The translations under genes were made by a program, and so were the position numbers. The notes under the pieces are model-generated. The model was not told where the DNA came from, searched no databases, and saw nothing but the letters and a program-made list of their open reading frames with translations. This document shows positions 1,301 to 12,945 of a stretch of DNA of 64,000 nucleotides, piece after piece. The stretch is taken from positions 124,001 through 188,000 of the forward strand of contig NZ_JAJERH010000001.1 of the NCBI RefSeq assembly GCF_016919725.2. Reading direction: 5' to 3'. How positions within the stretch are numbered: position 1 is the first letter of the stretch; each line of letters opens with the position of its first letter. The DNA comes from Virgibacillus sp. AGTR. Its GTDB lineage: Bacteria > Bacillota > Bacilli > Bacillales > Amphibacillaceae.

Positions 1301-2338
1301 CTATTCAGCCATTTTTACGATAGGCTTAATCGTCACACCATTCTTTGAATCTGCAAAGGCTTCATTAATTTGCTCGAACTCATAAAACTTAACTAATTTA
1401 TCAAACGGAAATTGTCCATTTTTATAATATTCAACTAGCTGAGGAATAAATACTTTAGGTATGGCGTCCCCTTCAATTACTCCCATAATCGTTTTGCCTT
1501 CTGCCATGATATCATTATGCACATCAAACGTTATTTCTGGTGTAACACCAACAATTGCACATTGTCCTAAAGGGCGAAGCGCATGTATGGATTGTTTTAC
1601 CACAGGAGGAACTCCAGTTGTATCAATGGCATAGTGCGTTCCCCCATTGGTTATTTCTTTTATTTCTTTCACAACATCCTCTGTCGTTTTACTATTTATA
1701 GCATGAGTTGCACCTAATTCTTTTGCCAATTCTAGACGACTCTCCTGAATATCTACAGCTATAATTTGCTTACATCCTTGAATCTTAGCAGCCATAACTG
1801 CGCTTAATCCAACAGCACCACTACCGTATATTGCAATTGATGAACCAAATTCGGGTTTTAATTTATTTAAAACGGTACCGCTGCCAGTTTGGATTCCACA
1901 TCCAAGTGGTCCTAATAATGCTAAGTCAACATCTTTATCGACTTTCACAACATTTTTCTCATTAGCAACAGCAAATGTTCCAAAAGAAGATTGTCCAAAG
2001 AAAGTGGATAATGCTTGTCCATTCTGATGAATTCTATATGTTCCATCCTCCATCTTTCCTCCGAAATTCAAATCATTGAATGCTAGACAAACAGATGGAT
2101 GCCCTGTTAAACAGTTTTCACAATGCCCGCATGAAGCAAATGCAATGACGACATGGTCGCCAGGCTCAATTGTAGTGACTGCATCTCCAACCTCTTGAAC
2201 AACACCTGACCCCTCATGACCCAGTACGGCGGGGAATGGTGCAAGGCCCGCATCTCTTGCTACTGCATCGGTATGACATACACCAGAAGCTACAATTTTA
2301 ATAACAACCTCATTGGGTTTAGGTTCAGAAAGCTCCAC
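1301..2338 (-). CDS. Zinc-dependent alcohol dehydrogenase (aryl-alcohol type), 5' end apparently damaged
   Basis: Medium-chain NAD(P)-dependent alcohol dehydrogenase. Catalytic zinc ligands are visible in GVCHTD and GHEGSG, the structural zinc site has four cysteines in CGHCENC...C, and the Rossmann motif is GSGAVGLS. Homology to the family's usual N-terminus continues in frame upstream of the GTG at 2338: codons at 2339-2389 read VQAAVTHSQGDDFKLEE, but an in-frame TAA sits immediately before the V where the family normally has its start Met. No ATG, GTG or TTG and no ribosome binding site are seen in that extension. The GTG at 2338 would remove about 17-19 residues of the first beta strand and has only a crowded AGAAGAG before it. 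The gene is therefore either expressed poorly or a young pseudogene. Confidence 0.75.
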   Translation of the reverse strand: MELSEPKPNEVVIKIVASGVCHTDAVARDAGLAPFPAVLGHEGSGVVQEVGDAVTTIEPGDHVVIAFASCGHCENCLTGHPSVCLAFNDLNFGGKMEDGTYRIHQNGQALSTFFGQSSFGTFAVANEKNVVKVDKDVDLALLGPLGCGIQTGSGTVLNKLKPEFGSSIAIYGSGAVGLSAVMAAKIQGCKQIIAVDIQESRLELAKELGATHAINSKTTEDVVKEIKEITNGGTHYAIDTTGVPPVVKQSIHALRPLGQCAIVGVTPEITFDVHNDIMAEGKTIMGVIEGDAIPKVFIPQLVEYYKNGQFPFDKLVKFYEFEQINEAFADSKNGVTIKPIVKMAE

Positions 2339-2557
2339 CTCTTCTAGTTTAAAATCATCACCTTGACTATGTGTAACAGCTGCTTGAACTTAGTTATTTA
2401 TAATTATTTAGTTACTATATATTATTATACACTGATATATCGGAACTAACGATAAATGTGCTTGAGACAAGACAAAATACTGCATCATACCAAAACAAGT
2501 AAGCTTCATGCCATATGTCCATCTAGAATATGTTACCCATCAAAACGCTAAAATAGT

Positions 2558-2597
2558 AAAAAGGTAAACAAGTTACGGTAAACTCGTTCACCTTTTT
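2558..2597 (-). terminator. Intrinsic terminator after the DUF981 gene
   Basis: Arms 2558-2574 and 2581-2597 (17 bp, two G-T type mismatches) with an ACGGTA loop. The minus-strand arm ends in a T-run. It lies 30 bases past the stop of the gene at 2627. Confidence 0.8.
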
Positions 2598-2626
2598 AAA
2601 CTGTATAACAGCCAAGAACAAATGAA

Positions 2627-3349
2627 TCACATCGTGTTAACAATTAGTCCGATATGGGTAAAATAATTCATCACACCAAATAAAACAAAAACCCATCCTG
2701 CAATAGTCCAAGCCATTTTAATAATGATTAATAAGCTTTTATTAGGCTTTGGCTTTAGGATAAATGGAAATAACACTGCCCCCAGCCCTGTAATCGCGTA
2801 TAATCCTGAAATAAACATTGCCTCGATTAGCGGATAATCTGCAAATGCACCCGAAATCGGTTCTTCTGGTGGAGCAGCAAATAACTGATAAGTTACTCCA
2901 GCAATCGCCACTGAAAAAAGTGCTAGCCCCATTGCTGCAGCAAAATAAGCTAATGGTTTTAACAAATAAGGTAGCTCCTGTTGTAACTTTTCAGAAACCG
3001 TCTTATTATGGTTCATATTTATACCTTCAGCCATATATACGTTTGACTTTCTCCATAATAAAATAGCAGCTGCCAACAACATTACCCCAAAAGCTAAGGA
3101 TGGTTCTCCAAAGATGATATCATCGAAGGGAAATCCAATTTTAGACAACGGCCATGTTAAGCTCATATGCGTACCAGTTATTGTAAGGATAAAACCAGGG
3201 ATAGCAAAGCCAATGGCCCACCCCTCCAGCTGTCCAACGCGCCCTCTGTTCACATGTGATGCAAATCGCAGAATTAATAATAAACCTACACCAGTTGCTA
3301 CCACCATAATCGTATTATACACCTGCGTTACTGACCAATCGATAACCAT
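2627..3349 (-). CDS. DUF981 family integral membrane protein
   Basis: Polytopic membrane protein of about 240 aa with roughly six to seven hydrophobic segments, resembling the DUF981 family of uncharacterised membrane proteins. The start chosen is the ATG at 3349 (MVIDWS), which has AAGGGGGAGT four bases upstream; an upstream ATG at 3373 would place that ribosome binding site inside the coding region. It is the last gene of a minus-strand run that begins with the AraC/PEP-hydrolase fusion, 53 bases after the stand-alone PEP-hydrolase-like gene, and has its own terminator. No catalytic motif is apparent. A role in transport or sensing for the neighbouring enzymes is only a guess. Confidence 0.7.
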   Translation of the reverse strand: MVIDWSVTQVYNTIMVVATGVGLLLILRFASHVNRGRVGQLEGWAIGFAIPGFILTITGTHMSLTWPLSKIGFPFDDIIFGEPSLAFGVMLLAAAILLWRKSNVYMAEGINMNHNKTVSEKLQQELPYLLKPLAYFAAAMGLALFSVAIAGVTYQLFAAPPEEPISGAFADYPLIEAMFISGLYAITGLGAVLFPFILKPKPNKSLLIIIKMAWTIAGWVFVLFGVMNYFTHIGLIVNTM

Positions 3350-3402
3350 TTGTACTCCCCCTTGTTTAAACATTTCTTCCCATTATAGCTAAATTAATTA
3401 CG

Positions 3403-4227
3403 TTAGTTTCGAATATCTTTAAAAGCTTCTGCTTGCTCTTTGATACCTTTTTCAGCAGCAAACCTTTCAATACTTGATGCTCCAAAGAATCCTACAATAC
3501 CATCTACTCTTTCGATTACATATGCTGCATCTTCCGGTTCGGCTATCGGTCCACCATGACAAATAGCTGTAATATCTGGATTTACGGACTTCCCAGCATC
3601 GATGATTTTTTGAATTCTTTCTACACAGTCATCTAAAGTTAACGCAGTTTTAGCTCCAATCGTTCCTTTTGTTGTGAGTCCCATATGCGCAACCAATATG
3701 TCTGCTCCAGCTTCCGCCATTTTTCTCGCTTGCTCCTCATCAAACACATACGGAGTTGTGAGCATATCTAATTCATGCGCTTTTTTAATCATATCAACCT
3801 CAAGATCATATCCCATGCCCGTTTCCTCTAGATTTTGTCTGAACACCCCATCAATCAAACCAACCGTAGGGAAATTCTGTACACCACTAAAGCCTTGTGA
3901 CTTTAATTGCTTTAGAAATACATCCATCACTCTAAATGGATCTGTACCATTCACCCCTGCAAGTACAGGTGTGTGATGAACAACTGGTAACACTTCGCTC
4001 CCCATTTCTACAACAATTTGGTTTGCATCACCATACGAAAGTAATCCTGCTAATGATCCACGACCAGCCATCCGATATCGACCAGAATTATAAACAATTA
4101 GCATATCCGCACCACCAGCTTCACTACTTTTAGCAGTTATACCTGTGCCAGCTCCCACACCTAATAATATTTTCCCTTCATTGACCTCTTCTTTAAATCG
4201 ATTTAAAATTTCTTCGCGTGAATACAA
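3403..4227 (-). CDS. PEP-hydrolase-like TIM-barrel protein (Tm-1 C-terminal domain type)
   Basis: A 274-aa predicted TIM-barrel enzyme of the phosphoenolpyruvate-hydrolase-like family (Pfam PEP_hydrolase). Characteristic stretches are [21 protein letters not shown] near the N-terminus, [11 protein letters not shown] around residue 115 and CHGGPI...FFGASSIER near the end. The same domain forms the C-terminal half of the plant and fungal Tm-1 proteins. The start is TTG at 4227, preceded by AAGGAGAG at 7 bases, two bases after the stop of the UPF0261 gene, so translation is probably coupled. The substrate is unknown; the family name reflects weak annotation, not a proven reaction. Confidence 0.85.
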
Positions 4228-4228
4228 T

Positions 4229-5455
4229 TTAGTTCTCTCCTTTTTTAGCTTCCATTAATTGAATTAACTTTTCAGCTGCCGCTTCAGCAAAAGCTTTGTC
4301 ATTAATAACATTATCAAGCTCTATCAATTGTACTTTTGAACGATCTACTTTTTCCTTTAACGTATCAAATAACATCGTATCCTCTTCAGGACCATAAAAG
4401 TCCTGTCCCTTTACATCTAGTCCAGAAAGCCCTTTTAGCGGTAATATAAGAGCAGTATCTCCCTCAGCCTTATTTAATTTGGCTGCGATAGCTTCACCGA
4501 TTTGCTTATTTTCTTCAACGCTCGTACGCATTAATGTAACGGTAGGGTTATGCCTATAAAAATTTCGACCCGCGTAATGCTTTGGAACAGTATCATACGG
4601 TCCGAAGTTCACCATGTCCATTGCACCAACAGATACAACCTGAGGAATACGATGTTTCGCCGCTGCTTCTAATCGATGTGGGCCAGCTGCTAATACACCA
4701 CCAAATAGCTCATCTGCCCATTCTGTTGTTGTTAAATCAAGCACACCCTTAATAAAACCATTCTCAATAAGGTTTTCCATTGTACGGCCACCAACTCCTG
4801 TAGCATGGAAAATTAATGTTTCATATCCCTGTTTTTCCAAATATGCTTTTGCATAGTTAATACAGGGAGTCGTTAACCCAAACATTGTCGCAGCGATTAA
4901 AGGTTTTTTTTCAATCGTTGTTTTGTTTTCATATGTCAGCATTCCAGCAATTGCAAAGACTGCATTTGTGAAGATTTTGGTAGAAATAGAGTTTAATCCA
5001 GCTACATCAACAATAGAAGGGTACATCATAATATCACTTGTCCCAACATATGGCTCCGTATTTCCGGATGCAACTGTTGATACCATAACTTTTGGTACAC
5101 CGATAGGCAGTGCTCTCATGCCAGGTGTAACGATAGAAGTACCTCCTGTTCCACCAAAAGATAGAATGCCGTCAAATTTTCCTTCATCATATAGTTTTGG
5201 CAGTAGTAGTTCCATACCTTTAGAGAGGACGAGCGTAGCATGAGCTCGATCCTTTGCCGCTACGATTTGTTGTTTATCTTCCCCAGCCGCAACAAATACC
5301 TCTGTATTAGATACATCTGGAGGAAAAACAGGGTCGAAAACACCTGTATGAATAGTCAATGTTTGAAACCCAAGTGATTCAATCAACTCTTTAACGTATT
5401 GAAACTCTTTACCCTTTGAATCAAAAGTACCTGCTAATGCAATTGTTTTCGACAT
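4229..5455 (-). CDS. UPF0261 / Tm-1-like ATP-binding domain protein
   Basis: A protein of about 408 aa matching the Tm-1-like ATP-binding family (UPF0261), which forms the N-terminal half of the tomato Tm-1 antiviral protein. Motifs include [11 protein letters not shown] at the start, GGTGGTS near residue 105, a [11 protein letters not shown] segment near 133 and [11 protein letters not shown] near 220. The ATG at 5455 is preferred over the TTG at 5461 because AAGGGGAG is 7 bases from the former and abuts the latter. It is followed immediately by the PEP-hydrolase-like gene. In Tm-1 the two domains are one polypeptide, so the two gene products very likely act together. The bacterial function is not established. 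Confidence 0.87.
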
Positions 5456-5550
5456 TTCCAACTCCCCTTTTCTTTTAATAATTTAAAAACGTAACATCTA
5501 CCTTTGCTAGCTGGCTACACATTCAATTTTGGTTAGGTTAAATCTGTTAT

Positions 5551-5715
5551 TTAGTCTACAATGTCCTGTCCTGCTTTAAAGGTAGCTGGAGGAAAAGTTA
5601 AAATTGCTCCAGAAAACTTCGCACGAAAAAAGCGATATCTTTTCAAGGATGTGATGACATTAGCAATGACCCATTGCTTCAGTGCGGGGTAATCTCTATC
5701 TTTTTGCAATTTCAA
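5551..5715 (-). CDS. Possible small ORF between the regulator and the UPF0261 gene
   Basis: A 54-codon frame from TTG at 5715 to TAA at 5551, with GAGGG five bases before the start. The predicted peptide is basic and aromatic in the middle (VITSLKRYRFFRAKF) and not obviously a membrane or secreted peptide. I do not recognise it. It lies inside an inverted-repeat segment (5617-5755), so it could equally be the remains of a mobile element's gene. Confidence 0.25.
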   Translation of the reverse strand: MKLQKDRDYPALKQWVIANVITSLKRYRFFRAKFSGAILTFPPATFKAGQDIVD

Positions 5716-5755
5716 TTTATCCCTCTATCCCAATGATATCGCTTTCTTCGCGGAA
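5617..5755. repeat. Imperfect inverted repeats enclosing about 95 bp (MITE-like or long hairpin)
   Basis: The left arm 5617-5639 and right arm 5735-5755 are imperfect complements sharing AAAGCGATATC/GATATCGCTTT plus flanking GCGAA-type bases. An internal GCAATG/CATTGC repeat is also present. It could be a small non-autonomous element or an RNA structure between the regulator and the enzyme genes. Only one copy is seen in the window. Confidence 0.4.
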
Positions 5756-5766
5756 AATTAATGTAT

Positions 5767-6978
5767 TTATGTTCGTTTATTTTGTCCTAATGTTTGTTTT
5801 TTATATTGCTTGGGTGATAATCCATATCTTTTTTTAAATATCTTACTAAATTGCGTATAGTTTGGATAACCAACCATTTCTGAAATTGTCGAAAAAGGAA
5901 GATCTTTTTCGTACATAATTTCAATGGCCCTATTTAATCGAAAGTTAATTAAATAGTTAACGAATGAAATCCCCATCTCTCCTTTAAACAATGTGCTTAA
6001 ATAAGTCCTAGATAGGTTTAAGATACTCGCAAGATCATTCAAGGTAATTTGCTCCATATAATGTGTACTTATATAATCTTTAATAAACGCAATATAATCT
6101 TGTTTACTACTAAAGCCGTTTATAATTTTTTGCATAAATTCTTCATACTTCACATCATACGTTTGCTTAAATGACTTGGTTATTTTCATAATAAGTTGCT
6201 CTGCTGGTATCCTTTCAAAGACAGAACCACCGATATAACCATTTATATCCGTTCCATCATACATAAACTGTACATCAATTGGCTTGTTAACTGGCCCCCC
6301 GTAAACCATCTTAATGACAGGCCGATTAAATTGATTACATACACTAAATATGGCTATTGCTATTCGTTTGGCTGATTGCAAGGATTGTATTTGTTTTGCG
6401 CCTAGTATCCCACCTGTTGTTAAACCAAGGTGGACACATATGATATCTGCGCCAGCTTGTAGCATGGCTTTTGCTTGGCTTTCATTAAAGACAAAGGCAA
6501 CAGTAAACAGGCCACGTTGACTTGCAATACGAATTGCCTCAACTTCCCTTTGATACGATATTCCTTGCTCCTCGAGTGCTTCGCGAAAATCACCATCAAT
6601 TAATCCTAGTGTTGGATAGTTATTTATTCCAGCAAAACCATGATCCTGAATCTTTTTTATGTAAGCCTCTAAATTAATCGTTGGATCAGTTGCAAACAAA
6701 CCAAAAATGGTGGGTATTTTTTTAATTACAGGCAATAATTCCTTTAGAGCAAAATCCATAACGACGCTATTACTATTTGCATATGGCATAAACCCAGCAA
6801 GTGAGCTAACACCCATTTGACGAAATCGACCCGAACTTAACGCCAGTATAAAATCTGCACCACCTTGTTCCGCATATTTTGCTGTTAAACCAGATCCAGT
6901 AGCTACACCAATGATATGATTTTTAGTTTTTAGTTGTTTATATAAATTATCTAAAATCTTTTCTTTAACCGATTCCAT
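5767..6978 (-). CDS. AraC-family regulator fused to a PEP-hydrolase-like TIM barrel
   Basis: A two-domain protein of about 403 aa. Residues 1 to about 275 repeat the TIM-barrel fold of the stand-alone protein encoded at 3403-4227 (GVATGSGLTAKYAEQGGAD, NNYPTLGLIDG, VYGGPVNKP, GGSVFERIP). The last 100 residues are an AraC/XylS DNA-binding domain with two helix-turn-helices, including SRTYLSTLFKGEMGISF and the signature GYPNYTQFSKIFKKRYGLSP. The ATG at 6978 (MESVKEK) is favoured because GGAG lies 7 bases upstream; the frame extends to a GTG at 7020 without a good site. It precedes the UPF0261 and PEP-hydrolase-like genes on the same strand, so it probably senses the ligand or product that its enzyme cousin handles. 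This is an unusual architecture for a regulator. Confidence 0.88.
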   Translation of the reverse strand: MESVKEKILDNLYKQLKTKNHIIGVATGSGLTAKYAEQGGADFILALSSGRFRQMGVSSLAGFMPYANSNSVVMDFALKELLPVIKKIPTIFGLFATDPTINLEAYIKKIQDHGFAGINNYPTLGLIDGDFREALEEQGISYQREVEAIRIASQRGLFTVAFVFNESQAKAMLQAGADIICVHLGLTTGGILGAKQIQSLQSAKRIAIAIFSVCNQFNRPVIKMVYGGPVNKPIDVQFMYDGTDINGYIGGSVFERIPAEQLIMKITKSFKQTYDVKYEEFMQKIINGFSSKQDYIAFIKDYISTHYMEQITLNDLASILNLSRTYLSTLFKGEMGISFVNYLINFRLNRAIEIMYEKDLPFSTISEMVGYPNYTQFSKIFKKRYGLSPKQYKKQTLGQNKRT

Positions 6979-7225
6979 TTTTATTCTCCATGAAACATTA
7001 TTTACGTGCAGTGGTGCCACTCCGCGTATTGTTCTTATTTAATCCATCATAGCATATAGAGACAGATTACTATAATGAAAATAAAATATGTAGGAAAACG
7101 AAACTACCTAATAATCTAGCCTTGACTATGCTACTTAGCAAACATGTGCCCTTTCATTTACAATATAAAAGGTTTTCCATACAATATTGATAACATAGGG
7201 CACTCTTTTATATACTAGTTCACTT

Positions 7226-8440
7226 TTATGGAAGAAGATAATAAACCATACTTCCTAAATAATTCCCAATCACATAACCTAATGTACCAACTAACATAAT
7301 CGGAACAATTAATTTCGTCCAACCTTTAGCAATTGCAAAAGCAGCAGCGGTTGTAGGGCCACCAATATTAGCATTACTAGCAACTATCATTTCTTCAAGA
7401 CTGAATTTAAACAGCTTGCCAACTGTAAATGTTACTAGCATGTTGAATAGAACCATAATAGCTAAAAACAACAATAATAAAGGTGCGTTACTAATAAGTA
7501 GTGGAAGTGATGCCGGGACTCCAATTACTACAAAGAAAATATAAATTAAATACGTACCTATTTCTTGAGCACCATGAATATTTTCAAAGAAACGATGGAA
7601 GACAGTGACGACAAAAACGGTAATACTCGTTAGCATTAAATAACCATCGCCGAATAAACCATTTAATACATTGTAAAAGAAACCAACACCTTCTCCTGAT
7701 GGAATCCATTGGTCAATAACTTCAGCAAGTTTAAACGAGATTGCTACTAGTGCAAATGCTATACCAATAGCAAAAGCAATATCTTTTAATGAAACTTCTT
7801 TTCGTTTCCAATAGGTACGAACTCCATTCTCTTGAGAATCATTATTGTTTTGTTCCAATTCATCGAGGTAAGGTGTATGGAACCTGTTACGAATGAATGT
7901 TATTGCTGGCAGCATAATTAGAGTAAAAAAGTAAAGCGCCATAAGAATATTATCAGCCACTATAGCAGAAGAAGCCAATTCGCCTGGTACCTCAAGCTTA
8001 GCTGACAAAGCAGCAAAGTTCACGCCTCCACCTGTATAGGAACCTGTTTCTAATCCTGTAATCTTTGTAGCATTTGGAATCCATTGATGCATAGACATAT
8101 AAGCAACAAAGCCCCCGATTACAGTACCTATTGAACTAATAAGAAACAGCAATAACATTCTGCCGCTTTCATTCCATATTTTCTTAAGATTTGCCTGGAA
8201 TAATAACAGCGGAATAGCAAGTGGGACAACATATGACCAAACAGCATCGTAAGCAGGTGCTTGACTTGGAATCACATTTATATTTACGAGAACCATCGCA
8301 CCAACAAGAGCGATAATAGCACCCGTCACCTTGGAGGCCCACTTATATTTTTGTTCTAAGCATATGCTTACAGCAGCCCAACCTGCCATAAAGGCCCATA
8401 ACAACCATGTATCTTCTGAACTTATAATTGATGTAATCAT
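7226..8440 (-). CDS. DUF819 (YjcL-like) membrane protein
   Basis: A 404-aa polytopic membrane protein with about 10-12 hydrophobic segments, matching the DUF819 family that includes B. subtilis YjcL. The conserved stretches TGSYTGGGVNFAAL (around residue 130) and ASNANIGGPTTAAAFA (around residue 355) are the repeated glycine-rich motifs of this transporter-like family. The substrate is unknown. It is divergent from the DUF899 gene with a 208-bp gap and is downstream of no other minus-strand gene within 200 bp, so it is probably monocistronic. Confidence 0.85.
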   Translation of the reverse strand: MITSIISSEDTWLLWAFMAGWAAVSICLEQKYKWASKVTGAIIALVGAMVLVNINVIPSQAPAYDAVWSYVVPLAIPLLLFQANLKKIWNESGRMLLLFLISSIGTVIGGFVAYMSMHQWIPNATKITGLETGSYTGGGVNFAALSAKLEVPGELASSAIVADNILMALYFFTLIMLPAITFIRNRFHTPYLDELEQNNNDSQENGVRTYWKRKEVSLKDIAFAIGIAFALVAISFKLAEVIDQWIPSGEGVGFFYNVLNGLFGDGYLMLTSITVFVVTVFHRFFENIHGAQEIGTYLIYIFFVVIGVPASLPLLISNAPLLLLFLAIMVLFNMLVTFTVGKLFKFSLEEMIVASNANIGGPTTAAAFAIAKGWTKLIVPIMLVGTLGYVIGNYLGSMVYYLLP

Positions 8441-8648
8441 GCCAACCCCCCTTTAATTGTTGATAGTTAATACCCCTAGTTCGTCTATCATAAAAATACT
8501 AATTATAATATAGAATTTTCTAATTATTGTCAAGAGGAAATAACTCCTTTTATGTAGATCATATAGCAATAAAAGAGAAACCCTTCCTTCTTCTATATGC
8601 TATTCTTTGCTTACCGAAAGAATATACTTGAGAAAGGAATGATTATTT

Positions 8649-9401
8649 ATGTCAGAATCAATGAAGCATTGCTGTAGCAAAAATAATACAGCTGATAATG
8701 AACAGCTTCGCAAAACTCATGTAAATCAAGCGATGATTGTAACAAAAGAAGATTGGAATAAAGCACATCAGGCCTTTTTAAAGAAGGAAAAGGAACATAC
8801 TCGAGAGCGCGATAAATTAAATGCAGAACGTCGTCACTTACCTATGGTAGAAATAACAAAAAACTATACATTTAACGGATTAAAGGAGCAATATAGCCTT
8901 CTTGATTTATTCGCCGGAAAAAAACAGCTTATTGTTTATCACTTCATGTTTGACCCCAGTTGGGTTGAAGGCTGCGATGGCTGTTCTATGATGGTAGATA
9001 ACATTGGACACCAAGCTCATTTACGTGCACGTGACACGACGTTGGTCTTAATTTCTAGAGCTCCTATGGAAAAAATACATCCCTTTAAAAAGCGAATGGA
9101 ATGGACCTTGCCATGGTACTCTTCCTTTAACAGTGACTTCAATTATGACTTTGGAGCAACTACGAAGCAAGGAGAAGAAACGCACGGATACAGCGTATTC
9201 TTACAAGATAACAACAAGGTTTATCATACGTATTCAACAGGAGCACGTGGTGTTGAATACTTAGGTAGTAATTGGAGCTATCTTGATATCACCCCGATGG
9301 GCAGGCAAGAGGATTGGGAAAACTCACCTACTTGGGTCAGGAAAACCCCAAGATATGAATGGTGGAAACATCATGACAAATACACAGACTCCTTGTCTTG
9401 A
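8649..9401 (+). CDS. DUF899 family thioredoxin-like protein
   Basis: A 250-aa cytosolic protein of the DUF899 family, which has a predicted thioredoxin/AhpC-like fold. The diagnostic FDPSWVEGCDGCSMMVDNI region lies near residues 100-118 and contains a CxxC pair; a C-terminal WSYLDITPMGRQEDWE segment is also typical. The start ATG has GAAAGGA upstream. It stands alone between a divergent DUF819 gene and a hairpin at 9458. A redox or detoxification role is inferred from the fold only. Confidence 0.88.
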   Translation: MSESMKHCCSKNNTADNEQLRKTHVNQAMIVTKEDWNKAHQAFLKKEKEHTRERDKLNAERRHLPMVEITKNYTFNGLKEQYSLLDLFAGKKQLIVYHFMFDPSWVEGCDGCSMMVDNIGHQAHLRARDTTLVLISRAPMEKIHPFKKRMEWTLPWYSSFNSDFNYDFGATTKQGEETHGYSVFLQDNNKVYHTYSTGARGVEYLGSNWSYLDITPMGRQEDWENSPTWVRKTPRYEWWKHHDKYTDSLS

Positions 9402-9625: not shown

Positions 9626-10462
9626 CTAAATGACTTCTTTGATCCGATTACCTATGCGCAAATGATGAATGGTGATTTCCGGACGACTTCCAACTCGAAT
9701 ATTAATTCCTGTTTGACCAAGCCCTTCACTAATATAAAAGGGACGACCTTCTAATTTATGAAGTCCTTTAACCATATTCAACTTGACCAGTTTCCCCATT
9801 TTCCGAAGGTGGTAAGGTTTTGGCCAATGAATTTGCCCGCCATGAAAATGACCTGAAAGCAGATAATCAAAATGATACTTGTCCATTTCTAAAACTACAT
9901 TTGGATCATGTGTTAACACAAGATTACTTCCTTGTTGCAAACCTGCAAACGATTTAACTAGATTACTATGATTTGTACTAAAATTATCAATGCCAATAAC
10001 ATTAACAGCCTCACCATCTACTGTAATTACCGCATTTTCATTCTGAAGCGTTTTGAATCCATACTGATTCAGTATATCTTTTAATTGCTGAAAGTCTCTA
10101 TCCTTTAACACATAATCATGATTACCAAAAACCGCATAAGCACCATACTTAGGATTTAATTTACTCAATTCCTCTAAATAAGGTATAAGCTTGGGAATAC
10201 TTTTCTTACGATCTAAGAAATCTCCTGTTAACGCAATTAAATCTAGCGATTGAGAATCTAATTGTTGCATTATATTTTGTGGAGTTATCGATATATTTTC
10301 AATATGCAAGTCTGAGATATGCAATATTTTTAGTATTTTCCCTTTATTTGTTTCTATATCTTTTTCTATATCAATTTGATTAACAACCACAGAATGCGTA
10401 TTTCTATAGCCTATATATATAAAATAACTCAATAATGCTATAATTCCAATACTTATATACAT
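9626..10462 (-). CDS. Membrane-anchored metallophosphoesterase (YkuE/YkoQ-like)
   Basis: A 278-aa calcineurin-like phosphoesterase. An N-terminal hydrophobic helix (residues 1-17) anchors the catalytic domain outside or at the membrane. Metal-binding motifs appear in the canonical order: ISDLHIE, TGDFLDR, FGNHDY, LTHDP and SGHFHGGQ. Relatives in Bacillus (YkuE, YkoQ, YpbG) act on phosphoesters at the cell envelope, but the substrate here is unknown. The start ATG at 10462 has GGGGTG upstream. Confidence 0.9.
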   Translation of the reverse strand: MYISIGIIALLSYFIYIGYRNTHSVVVNQIDIEKDIETNKGKILKILHISDLHIENISITPQNIMQQLDSQSLDLIALTGDFLDRKKSIPKLIPYLEELSKLNPKYGAYAVFGNHDYVLKDRDFQQLKDILNQYGFKTLQNENAVITVDGEAVNVIGIDNFSTNHSNLVKSFAGLQQGSNLVLTHDPNVVLEMDKYHFDYLLSGHFHGGQIHWPKPYHLRKMGKLVKLNMVKGLHKLEGRPFYISEGLGQTGINIRVGSRPEITIHHLRIGNRIKEVI

Positions 10463-12243: not shown

Positions 12244-12945
12244 CTATATACAATTAGCACGAAAGCTCTTTACACATCCCGATATGAAATCGTCTTCGAT
12301 TATATCAAGTAATTCCATCATATCATCAATGATAAAATCCGCATTAGCACTTCCCCAATATGCATCTCTTTTCCAAATACTTATCATTCCCGACTTTTTA
12401 GCAGGATGGACATCATTTTGGGGATGATCACCTACAAATATACTTCTTGCTGCGGCAACTTGTAACCGATCTAAAGCGCTTCTAAAAATCTCTAAGTCTG
12501 GCTTTTTTATTCCCTCGTATTCAGATACCAAAACCTCATCCATAAACGGAAAGATCCCTGTTTTACGAATGACATCCATTTGGAACGGTCCTTGTCCATT
12601 TGTAATTATGCCAAGTTTTAATGATCGTTCTTGCAGTGCTTCCAGCAATTTTAAAACTTCAGGAAAAAGGATGCAGTTAGTTTTGAACTGAACCAAATAA
12701 TCAGTTAATAACTGTTTAGGGGTTATGCCAGTCACATTAAATTCCTTAACCATTTGTTGATATACTTTGTCGTTCCACACATATCCCCTTTTATCCAATG
12801 TTATAAATCGATTGACATAGCATTTTTTAGGTATATGACTGAAATAAGGATAGAAGCGTTCATATTGATTCGTGGCAAACCGTTTTATAGAAGCTTCTCT
12901 ATGAAGTAACGTTCCATCCAAATCAAAAATAACAGCTTCTATCAT
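12244..12945 (-). CDS. HAD-superfamily hydrolase
   Basis: A 233-aa haloacid-dehalogenase-like phosphatase. Motif I is FDLDGTL at residues 7-13 with a helical cap following; motif II is LGIITNGQ near residue 114; motif III is the KKPDLEIF lysine; motif IV is FVGDHPQND near 186. The substrate is probably a small phosphometabolite. It overlaps the upstream GNAT gene by four bases (ATGA), so the two are co-translated. Confidence 0.9.
   Translation of the reverse strand: MIEAVIFDLDGTLLHREASIKRFATNQYERFYPYFSHIPKKCYVNRFITLDKRGYVWNDKVYQQMVKEFNVTGITPKQLLTDYLVQFKTNCILFPEVLKLLEALQERSLKLGIITNGQGPFQMDVIRKTGIFPFMDEVLVSEYEGIKKPDLEIFRSALDRLQVAAARSIFVGDHPQNDVHPAKKSGMISIWKRDAYWGSANADFIIDDMMELLDIIEDDFISGCVKSFRANCI

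Follow-up and report, generated by a model that had tools for sequence, protein, structure and literature searches.

An AraC-Type Regulator with an Enzyme-Family TIM Barrel as Its Predicted Sensor, Encoded Next to the Genes for UPF0261 and a Stand-Alone Paralog of the Barrel

RESULTS

Gene content and domain architecture of the locus

We analyzed a 64,000-nucleotide stretch of DNA from Virgibacillus sp. AGTR, called the window here, in which a gene for a barrel-AraC fusion protein lies 5' of a UPF0261 gene and a second, stand-alone barrel gene (Table 1). The order on the minus strand is a DUF819 permease gene (8440-7226), the fusion, UPF0261, the stand-alone barrel, DUF981, a terminator-like hairpin, and an alcohol dehydrogenase gene (2338-1301), and in this strain the operon probably ends with DUF981. 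A GGAG ribosome-binding site lies directly 5' of the fusion's ATG, and an in-frame GTG at 7020 gives a longer open reading frame (ORF).

Table 1. Features of the locus (window coordinates)
Feature	Position	Strand	Remarks
AraC-type regulator with PEP_hydrolase TIM-barrel sensor	5767..6978	-	403 aa, start ATG 6978
TIM-barrel sensor domain	6163..6960	-	Residues 7-272, Pfam PF09370
AraC-type DNA-binding domain (HTH_18)	5794..6033	-	Residues 316-395, E 2.8e-19
Class-switch residues of the fusion			L47, Q54, S58, S69, F92, A96, F162, L192, Y226, Y248, G251
Predicted operator	5759..5792	-	Direct repeats CATTAGGACA / CATAAATACATTA, starts 21 bp apart; overlaps regulator stop codon
Predicted -10 box, TATCAT	5733..5738	-	20 bp past second repeat; fixed place in a 60-bp block across loci
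cre-like box, AGAAAGCGATATCA	5734..5747	-	Overlaps -10 box; one mismatch to the CcpA-site consensus
UPF0261/Tm-1-like protein	4229..5455	-	Pfam PF06792 and PF23189; probable start ATG 5455, ORF-list start TTG 5461
Stand-alone PEP_hydrolase-type TIM barrel	3403..4227	-	Pfam E 1.7e-130; stand-alone lineage, keeps Tyr46 and His224
DUF981 membrane protein	2627..3373	-	Pfam; 29 bp 3' of the barrel gene
Terminator-like hairpin	2557..2598	-	3' of DUF981; weak: the scanned region has 4 such sites versus a shuffle mean of 3.7

A preliminary description of this DNA had proposed that one ORF joins an AraC DNA-binding domain to a PEP-hydrolase-like TIM barrel, and Pfam searches bore this out. PF09370 (PEP_hydrolase) matched the N-terminal part with an E value of 2.9e-104 (348.4 bits versus a cut-off of 33.8) over profile positions 1 to 266 of 267, so the homology runs across the whole domain. 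The C terminus matched not only HTH_18 but also HTH_AraC in two stretches (E 3.5e-17), which is a double helix-turn-helix (HTH), and this domain matches AraC, MarA, and Rns chains in the PDB. A cupin-type N-terminal sensor is common, not obligatory, in AraC/XylS regulators; we found none in the fusion, where PF09370 is the only Pfam match to the N terminus, and the catalytic-type barrel takes its place as proposed. Pfam likewise gave no AAA+ sigma-54 interaction domain in the window fusion, whereas sister proteins encoded in other genomes have one. Chance juxtaposition and a frameshift artifact are ruled out by the single open frame and by the recurrence of this architecture across eight or more genera.

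The stand-alone barrel is the downstream paralog that had been predicted, with 37% identity to the fusion barrel over 269 columns (E 6e-68), and these two barrels are the only PF09370 matches in the whole genome. The UPF0261 gene between them was absent from the preliminary description. An Rfam scan of positions 2300 to 8700 gave no match. Among 200 loci, many of which have only ~1.5 kb of flank, DUF981 and DUF819 matched nothing from other genomes, and the alcohol dehydrogenase had a single distant match, in locus L140. DUF981 is present in 4 of 100 other relatives and, in G871, the one known to have the module, lies on another contig. In three related loci (L003-L005), relatives of window genes 9626-10462 and 1-967 surround the module, so the flanking DUF819, DUF981, and dehydrogenase genes look like local insertions. 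The neighbors of the module gave no clue to the substrate: among 39 stretches (38 loci and the window), barrels occurred in 39, UPF0261 in 36, and ABC ATPases of differing kinds in 10, any other neighbor cluster reached at most 5, partly in close relatives, and Pfam analysis of 20 proteins showed no shared theme.

The barrel and UPF0261 families

The solved protein 2p10 (Mll9387) is a homolog of the fusion barrel (E 1.4e-61), with a fold match of TM 0.86 by target. The next fold matches were PEP mutase and isocitrate lyase relatives, at TM ~0.57 by target and 11 to 16% identity. A barrel encoded on plasmid pMLa (locus L122) is identical to the crystallized 2p10 and lies beside UPF0261, in the same Mesorhizobium japonicum locus as a sigma-54 barrel regulator described below. 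Among the open-licence papers that our literature searches listed, we found no characterized or assayed PF09370 member with an established reaction. A possible clue to the chemistry comes from three loci of a Bacillota family (f104; L134, L136, and L137) in which PF09370 barrels lie near RuBisCO-like large-chain and 2-phosphosulfolactate-phosphatase-like genes (by Pfam for L134), with no AraC or sigma-54 fusion. According to PMC5028733, UPF0261 and the partner barrel, which occur across bacteria, archaea, fungi, and plants, coevolve, are suggested to interact, and are fused in plants.

The fusion is conserved, and the predicted sensor is joined to two types of output

The fusion is not confined to this strain, being present in six of seven other Virgibacillus genomes (the seventh, G401, is without any PF09370 match) and in other Bacillota. 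Neither finding that the preliminary description had named as a refutation, an N-terminal part unrelated to PEP_hydrolase or a fusion not conserved beyond this strain, was thus made. A species-genome scan found ten fusion loci at 61 to 74% identity, one of them truncated, in Virgibacillus, Bacillus chungangensis, Paraliobacillus, Salibacterium, Viridibacillus, Lentibacillus, and a record labeled Roseburia sp.; two more were matches to the HTH only and were dropped (L013 and L014), and L195, which is the same contig as L010 (each has 890,539 bases), was counted together with it. The truncated one, in Salibacterium halotolerans (L011), ends after about residue 303 with loss of the HTH, and its locus has neither UPF0261 nor a stand-alone barrel, which marks it as a decayed module. 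A survey of 159 genomes of the family found PF09370 above the cut-off in 19, of which 15 have both a fused-length barrel (an open frame of 391 to 435 aa) and a stand-alone one, 4 have only the stand-alone, and none has only the fused. At class level, PF09370 exceeded the cut-off in 33 of 398 genomes, and in 8 of these a complete second barrel lies within an open frame of 400 to 464 aa.

Among 153 loci, a sample drawn from the PF09370 and fusion searches and not a census, barrels carried 37 distinct C-terminal tails, 23 AraC-type and 14 sigma-54-type with no other kind; the architecture was checked by Pfam for nine fused representatives and one neighbor. In 21 of the 23 AraC-type rows and in all 8 Bacillota sigma-54 rows, the regulator gene precedes those for UPF0261 and the stand-alone barrel, and all three genes share one strand. 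The two exceptions are L007, with the order UPF0261, barrel, regulator, and L133, which is without UPF0261; in 22 of the 23 rows, UPF0261 and the fusion share a stretch. In L133, the fusion gene is directly 3' of another, divergent PF09370 barrel gene, and UPF0261 is absent from its 13-kb stretch. Three further loci (L192-L194) have the regulator 3' of the stand-alone barrel, as in L007. The module is thus real, conserved, and equipped with two outputs, more general than the preliminary description supposed, and no title or abstract among the open-licence papers that our searches listed describes the AraC fusion.

Regulator barrels form a separate lineage

A tree of 134 distinct barrels, built by maximum likelihood with a quick search, split 37 regulator barrels, 24 AraC-type and 13 sigma-54-type, from 97 stand-alone barrels with an SH-aLRT support of 95. 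For the tree and the residue tables, we dropped barrels with fewer than 225 aligned query residues, including the broken sigma-54 fusion L084, which turned 14 sigma-54 tails into 13 barrels, and we counted L011 as AraC-type, which gave 24. The 24 AraC-type barrels formed one group (SH-aLRT 96), and a single origin of the 13 sigma-54 barrels, several of which are long-branched, was not rejected (AU p 0.67). With the root of the tree unplaced, we infer the direction of change.

Two residues of the stand-alone barrels are replaced in all regulators

Comparison of the barrel with the stand-alone copy, which the preliminary description had proposed, gave Leu47 and Tyr226 in the fusion where the copy has Tyr46 and His224; we use the numbering of the copy for this pair, whose counterparts in the chain sequence of 2p10 are Tyr55 and His233. 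Among the stand-alone barrels, 96 of 97 have Tyr46; none of the 37 regulators has it, and they carry Leu (35) or Phe (2) instead, with Leu in all 24 AraC-type barrels and Leu (11) or Phe (2) in the sigma-54 type. His224 was also kept in 96 of 97 and lost from all 37, where Tyr (32), Glu (4), or Gly (1) replaces it; the AraC type has Tyr throughout (24 of 24), and the sigma-54 type has Tyr (8), Glu (4), or Gly (1). Ala90 is changed to Phe and Gly94 to Ala in 24 of 24 AraC-type barrels. Tyr160 is also Phe in 24 of 24, but it is not a clean marker, being absent from 9 of 97 stand-alone barrels and kept in 5 of 13 sigma-54 barrels. From this distribution, Tyr46 and His224 may be catalytic in the stand-alone barrels.

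In a TIM barrel, the active site lies on the face formed by the C-terminal strand ends. In a structure model of the fusion (mean pLDDT 76.8, pTM 0.61, with pLDDT below 50 at residues 56-64, 189-194, 229-232, and 255-260), residues 47, 96, 162, 226, and 251 lie at or beside such ends, namely those of strands 2, 3, 5, 7, and 8, and the switched residues 54, 58, 69, 92, 192, and 248 fall outside the strand-end definition. Under this first definition of the pocket, the enrichment of switched positions was not significant (5 of 11, P 0.094); a wider definition that takes in whole loops, set afterwards, gave 8 of 11 (P 0.004). The strand-end columns of AraC-type barrels had an entropy of 0.61 versus 1.13 for the rest, with none of 5,000 random sets as low, and in each of the three sets compared (AraC-type, sigma-54-type, and the 85 closest stand-alone barrels) they showed higher conservation than the remaining columns. 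The conservation in the AraC type indicates that the pocket is still under constraint.

What the pocket is kept for can be read in more than one way. Ten polar positions (D42, R53, N70, D98, N120, D128, E145, H183, T187, and R256) are kept throughout the AraC type (24 of 24), and each is also kept by at least 98% of the 85 closest stand-alone barrels, as would be expected if the fused barrel were still catalytic and consumed its own inducer, with induction stopping once the inducer is gone. The preliminary description had named such turnover as one option, but the absence from all 37 regulator barrels of a Tyr and a His, each of which 96 of 97 stand-alone barrels have, argues against it, as does the presence of a stand-alone copy along with the fused one in 15 of 15 family genomes, which makes the fused copy dispensable for catalysis. 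We consider a catalytic regulator very unlikely. Since the Tyr and His are replaced in every regulator while the pocket is conserved, the regulator barrel is probably a pseudo-enzyme sensor and not an inducer-degrading enzyme, as far as sequences can tell. The other option named, an enzyme co-opted as a ligand sensor, thus gains support from the homology, the conserved fusion, the separate lineage, and the two replacements.

Rather than sensing a small molecule, the sensor barrel could bind the UPF0261 protein and compete for it with the enzyme barrel; the switch would then report the balance of the two enzyme subunits. This would be in keeping with the coevolution and suggested interaction of the two families (PMC5028733) and with the presence of UPF0261 in the same stretch as nearly every AraC-type fusion; however, the higher strand-end conservation in regulator barrels fits a small ligand, and we think protein binding improbable. 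A small-molecule sensor is the reading that we prefer.

A predicted operator and promoter lie before UPF0261

AraC/XylS activators bind two direct repeats 21 bp apart that adjoin the -35 region. In nine training loci, we found a pair of repeats with starts 21 bp apart, followed 20 bp on by a TATCAT-like -10 box, between the fusion and UPF0261. A motif model built from relatives only ranked 5759-5792 first in the 64 kb, with 30.7 bits, and the runners-up scored 11.9 bits (the same region shifted by one repeat) and 11.8 bits. With its own genus left out of the model, the window site scored 25.65 bits and the next 12.08. When each training locus and its genus were left out in turn, the true site came first in eight of nine, and the site of L009 came second. 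This motif lies outside both regions that the preliminary description had suggested for binding, 5462-5550 and 7021-7225. As operators, those regions were rejected: the best score in 6901-8700 was 4.2 bits, and none of the 12 best window matches fell in 5462-5550.

Fourteen AraC-type loci with UPF0261 were outside the training set (near relatives of training loci, L088, L089, L092, and L012, are not among them, nor is L133, where UPF0261 is missing from the 13-kb stretch and the best motif match has 11.1 bits). The motif ranked first and lay directly 5' of UPF0261 in 12 of the 14 (L007, L074-L079, L082, L192, L193, L194, and L196), which are partly related, L074-L079 being one family and L193 sharing a genus with training locus L010. 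The remaining two, L085 and L197, both from one divergent genus, lacked it. The -10 box of the 12 loci was TATCAT in 4 and TATGAT in 6, with poor boxes in L082 (TAGAAT) and L196 (TAACAT). The scores of L074-L079 (15.4 to 18.8 bits) and L082 (16.0 bits) overlap those of the strongest stray matches (18.7 in L085, 15.3 in L012, and 14.3 in control locus L200), with L076 alone just above them, so for these loci the case is carried by the position of the motif and by the -10 box. The 18.7-bit match in L085, a locus without the expected site, is at 12521-12554, far from UPF0261. Three control loci with UPF0261 and a barrel but no fusion (L198-L200) had no motif match directly 5' of UPF0261. Conservation merely through overlap with the end of the regulator gene is ruled out by L007, L192, L193, and L194, in which the regulator is 3' of the barrel.

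From its likeness to the consensus, the box over the -10 element is a candidate CcpA site (cre), and it may serve in catabolite repression. A second, weaker cre-like box with three mismatches lies at 5627-5640, about 100 bp downstream of the first and in inverted orientation, and a similar inverted copy seems, by eye, to be present in the leader of other Virgibacillus loci.

The cre-like site shows that this promoter may also be repressed, and the regulator itself might repress the operon or have its main targets elsewhere. Repression by the regulator fits poorly with repeats that reach -35 at a fixed spacing to the -10 box, the layout familiar from AraC-type activators. As to other targets, a scan of the whole genome with a pattern written after the site was seen gave one exact match, the window site, and 10 matches with at most three mismatches (the window site included) versus 21 for a reversed-pattern control. 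We therefore hold repression or a distant main target to be unlikely and favor local activation.

Sigma-54-type loci

In five of the eight Bacillota loci with a sigma-54-type regulator, a strict -24/-12 element lies at the 5' end of UPF0261, where 0.0018 are expected from base composition; the bounds of the gap were fixed after the hits were seen, and one strict element occurs elsewhere in the eight loci. A strict element was absent in L128, L129, and the gap of L130, which has a relaxed one, and a scan of four alphaproteobacterial plasmid loci gave none immediately before UPF0261. In two rhizobial loci, L122 (pMLa) and L148 (pNGR234a), the sigma-54 barrel regulator lies behind genes for UPF0261, the barrel, a cupin, and a Gfo/Idh/MocA oxidoreductase. 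Three of five sigma-54 fusions examined in plasmid records are named "phosphoenolpyruvate hydrolase family protein" and the other two "sigma-54-dependent Fis family transcriptional regulator," so some proteins with the former name are transcription regulators.

DISCUSSION

We propose that the fusion is a dedicated local activator of the UPF0261-barrel(-DUF981) operon and that its barrel is now a ligand sensor for a compound of that pathway, and we put the probability of this at about 0.72. The sensor barrel would have arisen as a paralog of the enzyme barrel that it controls and would have become a ligand sensor with the loss of residues kept in the stand-alone lineage. Its AraC-type domain is predicted to bind the two direct repeats, which start 21 bp apart and reach the -35 region of the promoter before UPF0261, and the promoter would be activated when a compound of the UPF0261/barrel pathway binds the sensor barrel. 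In the simplest case, this ligand would be a compound that the stand-alone barrel consumes or produces. Carbon catabolite repression may come in addition, through the cre-like box that overlaps the -10 element.

A broader scheme, which we view as speculative and unlikely, is that a single split of the UPF0261-associated barrel gave a portable, non-catalytic receptor that was joined to both AraC and sigma-54 activators, each controlling the operon of its own stand-alone paralog; besides the metabolite of the pathway, the receptor may then also read the free UPF0261 subunit and act as a gauge of enzyme assembly. For the window, we retain the proposal of a local activator with a small-molecule sensor. 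The fusion and its predicted operator are a potential biosensor, as any compound that induces a reporter driven by 5733-5792 would be a clue to the substrate.

Among known regulators, AraC, RhaS, and MelR of the AraC/XylS family resemble the fusion in their C-terminal double HTH and differ in the sensor, which is a cupin in theirs and an enzyme-family TIM barrel here. Enzyme folds serve as sensors in the aminotransferase-like MocR/GabR proteins, in the ROK repressors NagC and Mlc (sugar kinase), and in the AraC-type GbdR and FtrA (DJ-1). The fusion shares with all of these the reuse of an enzyme fold as the sensor of a DNA-binding protein, but it differs in its unrelated barrel family, in having a stand-alone paralog in the controlled operon, and in the presence of the same sensor on two unrelated outputs. 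The best match in both sequence and fold, 2p10 ("putative phosphonopyruvate hydrolase," an activity given in its title), is unlike the fusion in being a stand-alone barrel.

The closest counterparts in design are sigma-54 activators such as MAFF_RS36480 of M. japonicum and NGR_RS30945 of Sinorhizobium fredii, which have the N-terminal PF09370 barrel and a locus with UPF0261 in common with the fusion. Their output is an AAA+ domain plus a Fis-type HTH, with -24/-12 promoters, whereas the fusion has an AraC-type domain and direct repeats at -35. In Photorhabdus, plu1011 is described in the section of PMC2422844 on these genes as a putative sigma54-dependent activator with a TIM-br_sig_trns domain, next to a "PrK012399-domain" gene that we take to be PRK02399, that is, UPF0261, and a 10.6-fold induction is given there for the plu1012-1010 unit. 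Plant Tm-1 has the same barrel family together with UPF0261, but in it the barrel is fused to UPF0261, and the part of PMC5028733 on this protein describes no DNA-binding domain. Enzyme-derived sensors are thus already known, and what is unusual here is that the paralog of the sensor lies in the controlled operon and that one sensor lineage is joined to two outputs.
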